A stretch of DNA of 64,000 bases from Gemmatirosa kalamazoonensis (GTDB lineage Bacteria > Gemmatimonadota > Gemmatimonadetes > Gemmatimonadales > Gemmatimonadaceae): positions 1,720,220 through 1,784,219 of the forward strand of contig NZ_CP007128.1 of the NCBI RefSeq assembly GCF_000522985.1, written 5' to 3'. How positions within the stretch are numbered: position 1 is the stretch's first letter; each line of letters begins with the position of its first letter. The translations under genes were made by a program, and so were the position numbers. Under the pieces are notes generated by a model. That model made no database searches and was not told the origin of the DNA. It saw only the letters and a program-made list of their open reading frames with translations. Shown one piece after another: positions 41,689 through 57,999 of this stretch.

Positions 41689-43683
41689 GTGGCTCGGCCA
41701 GGTCGTAATCTGCGGCTGCTGCTGTCGGCCCTGGCGCTGACCGCGACGCCCGCGCACTCCCAGGCCCGCGTCGTGATCGACGTCGCGCGACGCGAGGGGC
41801 CCGTGAGCCCGTTGCTGTTCGGGCAGTTCCTCGAGTTCATGTACGAGGGCATCAAGGGCGGGCTGCACGCGGAGCTGCTGCGCGGGCGCGGGTTCGAGGA
41901 GGCGCCCGACGCGATCGGGCTGCCGCGCCCGTGGGAGCGCTACCCGGACGACCGCAACGACGACTACGCGCTCGACTTCCGGTGGGACGACTCGGTGGCG
42001 TTCGCCGTGCGCGCCGACTCGCTCACGGGCACCGGGCCATCGCACGCGCTGCGCGTCGACGCCGGCGACGGCGTCATCGCGCGCCACGGCATCTACCAGC
42101 CGCGCGTGCCGGTGCGCGGCGGCGTCCCGTACACCGCGCAGATCTGGCTCCGCGCCGCCGACTACACGGGCCCGGTCGTCCTCGCGCTCGAGGAGGACGC
42201 GAGCGGCGGACGCGTGTACGCCGAGTGGCGCGTCGACGTCGCGCCGGGCGCGTGGCGCCGCTACGCCGTCGTGCTGCACCCGATGCGGAGCGATCCGCTC
42301 GCCCGATTCGTCGTGCTCTTTCCCGGGCGCGGTCGCGTGTGGCTCGACCAGGCGTCGCTCATGCCCGCGGACACCGCGCCCGGCGGCGTCCGGCGCGACG
42401 TGTACGAGCGCGTGCGCGCGCTGCGCCCCGCGTTCATCCGCTGGCCGGGCGGCAACGTGGCGCAGGACTACCACTGGCGGTGGGGCGTCGGCCCGCGCGA
42501 CGAGCGGCCGACGTGGGTCAACCTGTCGTGGAAGCGCGAGCCCGAGCCATCGGACTTCGGCACCGACGAGTTCATCGCGTTCGCGCGATCGTTAGGCGCG
42601 GAGCCGTCGCTCACGGTCAACGTGGACGGGCGCGGCGCGACGCCGGAGGAGGCCGCGGCGTGGGTGGAGTACTGCAACGGCCCCGCGACGTCGCGGTGGG
42701 GCGCCGTGCGCGCGGCGAACGGCCATCCCGCGCCGTACGGCGTCACGCTGTGGGAGGTCGGCAACGAGATCTGGGGCGACTGGGTCCGCGGCCATACGGA
42801 CGCCGCCACCTACGCGGGCAACTTCCGCCGCTACCGCGACGCGATGCGCGCCGTCGACTCCACCATCCGCTTCATCGCCGTCGGCGACAACGACATGGCG
42901 TGGAACCGCATCGTGCTGCGCGCGGTCGGGCTGTACGTCGACTACCTCGCGATCCACCACTACTACGGCTTCGACTCCACGCAGCGCGACCTGCGCCACC
43001 TCATGGCGCGGCCGTTGGGCTACGAGCGCTTCTACGCCGACGTCGCGCGGCTCATCCGCGACGAGGTGCCCGGCCACGCGGTCGCGCTCACGATCGACGA
43101 GTGGGGGCTCGCGCTCCCCGAGGCGCGGCAGCACGGCATGGACGCGGCGCTCTACGGCGCGCGGCTCATGAACGTGTTCGAGCGCACGCCGGTCGTCGCC
43201 ATGAGCGCGGTATCGGACCTCGTGAACGGCTGGCCCGGCGGCATCGTCCAGGCGAGCCGCCACGCGCTGTTCGTCACGCCGCTCTACCATGCGAACCGGC
43301 TCTACGCGACGCACCTCGGCCGCGAGCGCGTCGGCGTCGCGCTCACGGGCGCGCCGACGTTCGGCGTGGACTCGTCGGGCGCGCCGACGCCGGCCCTCGA
43401 CGTCGTCGCCACGCGCGCCGACAGCCTGTTGTACGTCATGCTCGTGAACACCGACCCCGCGCGCGACGTGCGCGTGCGCGTCGAGGTACGGGGCGGCAGC
43501 GTGCAGAGCGACGCGACGTGGGAGCTGCTCGCGGAGCCCGACGGACGTCGCGGGTCCAACGGCTTCGCGACGCCCGACGCGATCGCCCCGCGCCGCCGGC
43601 CGCTGCGCGCCGGGAGCGCGTTCGTCGTCGACGTCCCGGCGCGCTCGGTGTCGGCCTTGACGCTGCGCGTGCGCGGCGGCTGA
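41689..43683 (+). CDS. Alpha-L-arabinofuranosidase, GH51-like, secreted
   Basis: A 664-aa protein with signal peptide (ALALTATPAHSQA). The GH51 catalytic barrel follows an N-terminal carbohydrate-binding-like part (SPLLFGQFLEFMYEGIKGGLHAELL). Acid/base Glu360 lies in LWEVGNEIWG and nucleophile Glu471 in TIDEWG. It should release arabinose from arabinan or arabinoxylan. GTG 41689 fits one base after the peptidase stop. A beta-rich C-terminal domain (about 560-664) completes it. The pair suggests plant-derived glycopeptide or polysaccharide use. Confidence 0.93.
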   Translation: MARPGRNLRLLLSALALTATPAHSQARVVIDVARREGPVSPLLFGQFLEFMYEGIKGGLHAELLRGRGFEEAPDAIGLPRPWERYPDDRNDDYALDFRWDDSVAFAVRADSLTGTGPSHALRVDAGDGVIARHGIYQPRVPVRGGVPYTAQIWLRAADYTGPVVLALEEDASGGRVYAEWRVDVAPGAWRRYAVVLHPMRSDPLARFVVLFPGRGRVWLDQASLMPADTAPGGVRRDVYERVRALRPAFIRWPGGNVAQDYHWRWGVGPRDERPTWVNLSWKREPEPSDFGTDEFIAFARSLGAEPSLTVNVDGRGATPEEAAAWVEYCNGPATSRWGAVRAANGHPAPYGVTLWEVGNEIWGDWVRGHTDAATYAGNFRRYRDAMRAVDSTIRFIAVGDNDMAWNRIVLRAVGLYVDYLAIHHYYGFDSTQRDLRHLMARPLGYERFYADVARLIRDEVPGHAVALTIDEWGLALPEARQHGMDAALYGARLMNVFERTPVVAMSAVSDLVNGWPGGIVQASRHALFVTPLYHANRLYATHLGRERVGVALTGAPTFGVDSSGAPTPALDVVATRADSLLYVMLVNTDPARDVRVRVEVRGGSVQSDATWELLAEPDGRRGSNGFATPDAIAPRRRPLRAGSAFVVDVPARSVSALTLRVRGG

Positions 43684-43689
43684 CGGCGC

Positions 43690-43717
43690 TCAAGTTCGCC
43701 GGCGTCCTTGCCGACAC
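43690..43717 (+). promoter_or_regulatory. Sigma-28-like promoter
   Basis: TCAAGTTC, 12 bases, GCCGACAC. It resembles the FliA (sigma-28) consensus TAAAGTTT-N11-GCCGATAA and lies 30 bases before the mini flagellar-like gene at 43748. The same layout with the same 12-base spacing occurs at 56405 and 57894. Confidence 0.55.
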
Positions 43718-43747
43718 TCTCCCGGGACCCACACCGGGGGAGACGGC

Positions 43748-44020
43748 ATGATCGCAGGGATCTCCAGCTCGTTCGGCGGCGTCTCGGCCGCCGCGGCGCG
43801 GTTCGACGTCGCGGCCAGCCGAGTCTCGGCCGCCACCGAGACGCTGGCCAATCCGGACACGATGGACGTCGGCGGCACGAGCGCGCTGAGCGACGCGATG
43901 GTGCAGATGGCCGTCGCCCGCTTCGCGTTCCTCGCGTCGATCCACGTCGCGCTCACGACGAGCGACATGGTGAGCCAGGCGCTGCAGCTCGGCGGCTACC
44001 GCCCCAGCGGCACCAGCTGA
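43748..44020 (+). CDS. Mini flagellar rod/hook-like protein (FlgC-like ends without the core)
   Basis: A 90-aa protein. Its start (MIAGISSSFGGVSAAAARFDVAASRVSA) resembles the N-terminal coiled-coil of flagellar rod and hook proteins (Ile-Ser-x-Ala...Ala-Ala-x-Arg-Leu-Asp-Val-x-Ala), and its end (ALSDAMVQMAVARFAFLASIHVALTTSDMVSQALQL) the C-terminal rod motif (Asp-Met-Val-x-Met-x-x-Ala-x-x-Ala-Phe). The whole middle domain is missing. No other flagellar gene is nearby. A sigma-28-like promoter precedes it. A secreted, export-apparatus-linked or vestigial function is possible; certainty is moderate. Confidence 0.65.
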   Translation: MIAGISSSFGGVSAAAARFDVAASRVSAATETLANPDTMDVGGTSALSDAMVQMAVARFAFLASIHVALTTSDMVSQALQLGGYRPSGTS

Positions 44021-44078
44021 CGGGCGCTGCGCCCGATCCATGCAAGGGCTCGCGGGCCTCACCCGTCTGGAGCCCCGC

Positions 44079-44219
44079 ATGAGCGTGCCCGTCCCCGTGC
44101 CGTCGCCCGATCCGCTGCCGCTCCCCGACCCGCAGCCGACCCCGGACCGGGAGCCGTGGCCGCCGGCGCCCACCCCGCCCGAGGACGAGCCGCCGACGAA
44201 GAAGCTGCCGATCCAGTAG
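44079..44219 (+). CDS. Small proline-rich ORF
   Basis: A 46-aa frame from ATG 44079 to TAG 44217, with repeated Pro-x pairs (VPVPSPDPLPLPDPQP), acidic residues and a Lys pair near the end. It starts 58 bases after the mini flagellar-like gene. Codon use (mostly third-position G/C) matches neighbours, but in high-GC DNA such frames occur by chance. It could be a real downstream partner. The final stop is 10 bases from the stop of the converging gene. Confidence 0.4.
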   Translation: MSVPVPVPSPDPLPLPDPQPTPDREPWPPAPTPPEDEPPTKKLPIQ

Positions 44220-56404: not shown

Positions 56405-56432
56405 TAAAGTCCCGCGCCCACCGTGCCGATAC
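56405..56432 (+). promoter_or_regulatory. Sigma-28-like promoter
   Basis: TAAAGTCC, 12 bases, GCCGATAC. It lies 86 bases before the first ZU5-like lipoprotein gene. The -10 element is part of GTGCCG...CGGCAC, an inverted repeat also present at the 57894 site. Confidence 0.55.
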
Positions 56433-56517
56433 CAGCGTATGCGGCACTGTGGGCGCGTGGTGCGTCCGCCGGTGCCAGGGCACGTCCTTTCTTTACCTGC
56501 ACCCACACGGGACGCAC

Positions 56518-57893: not shown

Positions 57894-57921
57894 TCAAGTT
57901 CGCCGCCGGCGGTGCCGATAC
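57894..57921 (+). promoter_or_regulatory. Sigma-28-like promoter
   Basis: TCAAGTTC, 12 bases, GCCGATAC. It lies 79 bases before copy A2, with the same GTGCCG...CGGCAC repeat as the site before A1. Confidence 0.57.
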
Positions 57922-57999
57922 CTGCGAATGCGGCACCGCGGCCAGTCGCGCCACGGTGCCGGGGAACCTCACTCGTTACCTGCACCCCGAAGGACCCGC

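Follow-up and report, generated by a model that had tools for sequence, protein, structure and literature searches.

The small gene and its locus

At position 43748 of the window, by which we mean the whole 64,000-nucleotide stretch of Gemmatirosa kalamazoonensis DNA analysed here, lies the ATG start codon of a small gene whose product, P0001, has 90 residues (Table 1). The window sits on a 5,311,527-bp contig (C2) of the 7.48-Mb host genome, and the open reading frame preceding the small gene stops at 43683. A preliminary description of this DNA had placed a reading frame of this length here, and it proved to be real and correctly positioned, with an RBS-type sequence in front of it. Directly downstream, a short proline-rich open reading frame of 59 aa occupies positions 44040-44219 (+ strand); no counterpart of it was noticed in the ORF lists of loci L002-L004.

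Table 1. Coordinates of the small gene, its parts and its upstream signals in the window
Feature	Position	Strand	Remarks
FliA (sigma-28) type promoter	43690..43717	+	TCAAGTT, 13 bases, GCCGACAC; start-to-ATG 58 bp
Probable RBS	43736..43742	+	GGGGGAG, 5 bases before ATG; read from the sequence
Small-protein gene (P0001, 90 aa)	43748..44020	+	axial-type ND0 helix, short linker, axial-type CD0 (Flg_bbr_C) helix
N-terminal half, residues 1-34	43748..43849	+	probably related to FlgE/FlgC-type N-terminal D0 segment (hhalign)
C-terminal half and GGY tail	43877..44017	+	related to FlgE/FlgK/FlgC-type C-terminal D0 segment (hhalign, genome searches)

Distribution and conservation of the family

Relatives of P0001 form a stand-alone family of proteins of about 90-100 aa with 12 members in 7 genera. 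Within the host's own taxonomic family 11 of 179 genomes carry a member, the twelfth (G141) coming from one genome of a sister family; among the genomes nearest to the host, relatives are present in 4 of 59, host included. The first profile search gave 26 matches, ten of which constitute the small family (host, G015, G028, G011, G267, G113, G173, G359, G141 and G348), the remainder being mostly long frames. Among the other rows, part of which were read, L021, L022 and L034 proved to be flagellar and L023 and L026 unrelated. Phylum-wide, a stand-alone member was found in 10 of 395 genomes, a count that leaves aside two weak matches to short frames (G145, 74 aa, and G387, 132 aa). Two further members, G426 (the L122 record) and G427, lie outside the genomes searched for flagellin. 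A contig scan returned Gemmatimonadota only (5 loci); relatives of P0001 were found neither on the viral contigs searched nor on plasmids, where neither P0001 nor the L122 protein had a tblastn match. Small stand-alone Flg_bbr_C proteins are annotated in other phyla. The literature search, to which most subscription journals were closed, found no paper on the family. The accessible part of PMC9862903, a study of Gemmatimonas flagella and calcium, does not mention the small protein.

The family keeps close company with flagella. All ten member genomes searched contain flagellin, compared with 107 of 395 genomes overall (hypergeometric 1.5e-6 when genomes are counted, 1.4e-4 when genera are, shared ancestry not being corrected for). 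The search for homologues in genomes without flagella, which the preliminary description had recommended, produced none in a genome lacking flagellin, with 10 of the 12 member genomes covered. Conversely, just 10 of the 107 flagellin-carrying genomes possess the small gene, which is thus dispensable for flagella in general and, on that ground, accessory.

In four close pairs of members dN/dS amounts to 0.08, 0.18, 0.35 and 0.23, and the differences concentrate at third codon positions. This computation shows that the small gene is conserved under purifying selection. It bears on the idea that a rod or hook gene was duplicated and that the small gene is what remains of the copy, decaying and without function; the patchy distribution and the fact that nothing but two axial-protein ends is left would lend this some plausibility. 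Such a remnant is contradicted by the selection detected in the pairs tested and by the conservation of length and promoter, as well as of gene neighbours in two genera, and we consider it highly improbable.

Relationship to the ends of flagellar axial proteins

According to the preliminary description, P0001 comprises the two ends of a rod or hook protein without the middle. At the level of the family profile this reading is supported, more strongly for the C half than for the N half, whereas P0001 alone remains at noise in Pfam. In fact, the single protein has no Pfam match at E<=10 and only an unrelated one, below the cut-off, in NCBIfam. When the ten members are taken together, PF06429 (Flg_bbr_C) is matched by six of them (best 1.3e-7) and the NCBIfam models of FlgC, FlgE, FlgF and FlgG by one each, with no match to PF00460 (Flg_bb_rod) at E<=10 in any. 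The HMM search suggested beforehand, in which noise-level scores were to count against the claim, gave such scores for P0001 alone but not for the family. The two best matches of the full-length family profile in the PDB are both FlgC (E=0.015 and 0.034); neither the N half nor the C half alone has a PDB match at E<=10.

The C-terminal relationship is apparent in genome searches. A profile built from the small proteins only finds matches across the phylum, in 100 of 395 genomes, mostly between model positions about 40-90 and long frames; those long frames that were read are the C-termini of FlgE, FlgK or FlgC. Searched against the 3481 frames of the loci, the C half matches 23 frames outside the family at E<0.01, all of them at the frame end or within about five residues of it. 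A tblastn search of plasmids with the G141 member returned 12 records; in 11 of them the annotation is FlgE or a hook-basal body protein, and each has an E of only 2-9. A simple profile of the N half scores even true axial N-termini no better than noise, with FlgC from L034 at an E of about 1.

Comparison of alignments by hhalign reached further. Thirteen axial proteins served as partners, taken either from loci fetched for their C-terminal matches or from the host flagellar genes. The C half aligned to their C-termini at P=2.8e-9, with none of 100 column shuffles as good; since loci were fetched by C-terminal matches, this result is partly selected, which is not so for the N half. The latter aligned to the 13 axial N-termini at P=5.7e-5 over 29 columns and in register, again with 0/100 column shuffles as good (score 21.4 versus a shuffled mean of 7.5 and maximum of 14.4). 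The crossed controls gave P values of 0.83 and 0.57. In P0001 the middle domain of axial proteins is absent and a short linker joins the helices instead. Computation at the sequence level supports a relationship of both ends of the small protein to the ends of axial proteins, and the weakness of the N-terminal signal argues for caution in reading them.

The predicted structure is consistent with this relationship. A monomer model built from six sequences contains helices at residues 3-34 and 42-81 joined by a linker (mean pLDDT 67.9, moderate), and such a predicted two-helix hairpin fits one of the D0 type, a likeness that is not diagnostic. Foldseek returned 317 matches at E<=10, none of them at E<=0.001; no flagellar axial protein figures among the best 50 of the 317, and SipB, a type III translocator, does appear. 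VIA-align retrieved unrelated helical hairpins with Z values of about 8.5-10, a range common for helical models, and no flagellar protein is among the 50 entries listed. Fold comparison thus does not discriminate here.

A FliA-type promoter upstream of the small gene

Reading of the regions upstream of the small genes revealed a common element that resembles a sigma-28 promoter. The same kind of element precedes all ten flagellin genes examined (host and nine member genomes), with the -35 starting 105-112 bp before the ATG. A matrix was trained on these ten flagellin promoters only, the training sites having themselves been chosen by a sigma-28-like pattern after the upstream sequences were read, and it was applied, with the same genome left out, to 11 small-gene loci (3-64 kb), each searched on both strands. 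As no site of the small-gene family was used in the matrix, it constitutes a test independent of that family. In 8 of the 11 loci (G015, G028, G267, G113, G173, G359, G348 and JACMLI) the best site of the locus lies 58-142 bp upstream of the small gene; in two, namely the 64-kb window and G141, the site before the small gene is third-best. In the matrix scan of the G011 locus no recognisable promoter was found before the small gene. G427, outside the scan, has TAAAGAA-12-GCCGATA upstream, by pattern only. Altogether, a sigma-28 type promoter precedes the small gene in 11 of the 12 members.

As a positive control, the matrix was run on a 20-kb flagellar stretch of the host, where its best site is that of FlgM and its second-best that of flagellin. 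As a negative control, block shuffles of 124 kb (20 rounds) contained no site reaching the score of the window site. A strict version of the promoter pattern occurs four times in the 7.48 Mb of the host and its mirror control not at all, a count that is descriptive only because the pattern was written after the family sites had been seen. Most small genes carry a -10 of the form GCCGA[C/G]A, slightly different from the CCGATA or TCGATA of the flagellins. The host small-gene site resembles E. coli FliA sites given in the accessible part of PMC4183435, which include TCAAGTC (flgKL), TCAACTT (modABC) and GCCGACA (aer).

With such a promoter, the small gene looks switched on together with flagellin. 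The host flagellar genes are located at C2:156-210 kb, a region with five PF06429 and five PF00460 matches, one FliA and one FlgM over the cut-off and two flagellin domains, and the small gene lies at C2:1,763,967, about 1.55 Mb away. The earlier statement that it is isolated from other flagellar genes is correct as to position; as to function it misleads, because the gene has a FliA-type promoter like those of flagellin and FlgM and flagellin is present in all ten member genomes tested.

Late expression of so small a protein might also suit a cytoplasmic regulator of late assembly, whose axial-type ends would mimic export substrates and act as a decoy for export chaperones or the export gate without being built in. 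The lack of a central domain agrees with that role, and so does the GGY found at the C-terminus of 8 of the 10 aligned members, which has no counterpart in the axial C-termini shown. However, the host already has the usual late regulator, FlgM, direct signs of chaperone binding are absent, and an exported subunit would be expected to show the D0 pattern just as well; we judge a decoy of this kind to be rather unlikely.

Other genes with FliA-type sites

In two genera the small gene has conserved neighbours, which we take from their motifs to be a patatin-like gene on the upstream side, in 7 genomes, and a PEP-CTERM gene on the downstream side, in 6. The host homologue of the latter stands elsewhere with its own strict FliA-type site, at 949-976 of locus L089 (G000:C2:1420000-1423500). 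In the window, FliA-type sites at 56405-56433 and 57894-57922 (+ strand; matrix 26.3 and 25.1) are situated just upstream of lipoprotein-like genes; the two sites of the window that outrank that of the small gene precede lipoproteins. The lipoprotein-like genes of the window belong to a partly duplicated block in which frame 57194 shares 95% identity with frame 58697. FliA-type sites also occur at 636-664 of L090 and 571-599 of L091, before lipoprotein-like genes related to those of the window.

Since similar host sites precede lipoproteins and a PEP-CTERM protein, the FliA-type regulon is not purely flagellar, and the distribution of sites suggests that it reaches surface proteins here. This mixed content argues for caution. 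It also opens the way to a different explanation, in which the small gene belongs to a broader cell-surface programme driven by a FliA-like or other regulator and its product would function, alongside the PEP-CTERM and lipoprotein genes, at the envelope or in the matrix and not in the flagellum. The neighbours are the main ground for it, together with the strict host sites before one PEP-CTERM protein and two lipoproteins. The relationship to flagellar axial ends and the flagellin of every member genome tested weigh against it, as do the training of the matrix on flagellin sites only and the single FliA-type sigma factor over the cut-off in the host. We hold such a non-flagellar role to be unlikely.

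A candidate late accessory of the flagellum

Being conserved in several genera of soil bacteria and preceded by a flagellin-type promoter, the small protein is probably an undescribed accessory part of the flagellum. On balance, we favour its being a late, FliA-controlled relative of axial proteins that would consist of D0 only and act as a flagellar accessory. As judged from the promoter, FliA would transcribe the gene at the late stage alongside flagellin and FlgM. The two D0 helices of the product would then pair as a hairpin, and the protein would probably be exported by the flagellar secretion system, the passage through the type III channel being suggested by its ends. This step and its action on the axial structure, where it may be a minor D0-only subunit or a luminal or junction piece, are the least certain; the formation of a tube or plug is possible. 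More speculative, and in our opinion doubtful, is the generalization that there is a new late class of axial components, for which FliA would direct the expression of D0-only subunits once the hook is complete. These would be exported to become part of the tube or to lie within it, perhaps as a distal adaptor or as a plug in the export channel, and would be co-regulated in Gemmatimonadota with surface PEP-CTERM proteins and lipoproteins.

In the prevailing view, the D0 ends are what axial proteins require to build the flagellar tube, the middle domains being required for identity. Conserved, made of the ends only and preceded by a late promoter, the small protein lends itself naturally, as a minimal case, to studying the role of D0 alone, and it allows one to ask whether the late flagellum has undescribed subunits. 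In addition, a description of FliA-type promoters is supplied for a poorly studied phylum.

Comparison with known systems

FlgM, the anti-sigma-28 factor that is secreted late, resembles the small protein in its size and FliA-type promoter and differs from it in sequence. The idea that the small protein substitutes for FlgM was rejected, because the flagellar region of the host encodes FlgM separately; P0001 has no Pfam match to the FlgM family (PF04316). The small gene flxA of E. coli is a parallel as an orphan, FliA-dependent gene of uncertain role; in contrast to it, the protein described here has axial-type ends, and the FlxA-type family is absent from the Pfam matches of the ten members.

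FliE and the needle and inner-rod proteins of type III systems are two-helix, D0-like subunits of about 80-105 aa, comparable in length to the small protein, for which a two-helix hairpin is predicted at moderate confidence, although no sequence match to these families at E<=10 was found in the ten members. FliE and the rod genes are early genes, whereas the small gene has a promoter of the late type. The nearest likeness is to FlgC, FlgE and FlgK (PF00460, PF06429), whose two end segments align in register with those of the family; the small protein departs from them by having no central domain, by the location of its gene away from the host flagellar cluster and by its late, FliA-type promoter.
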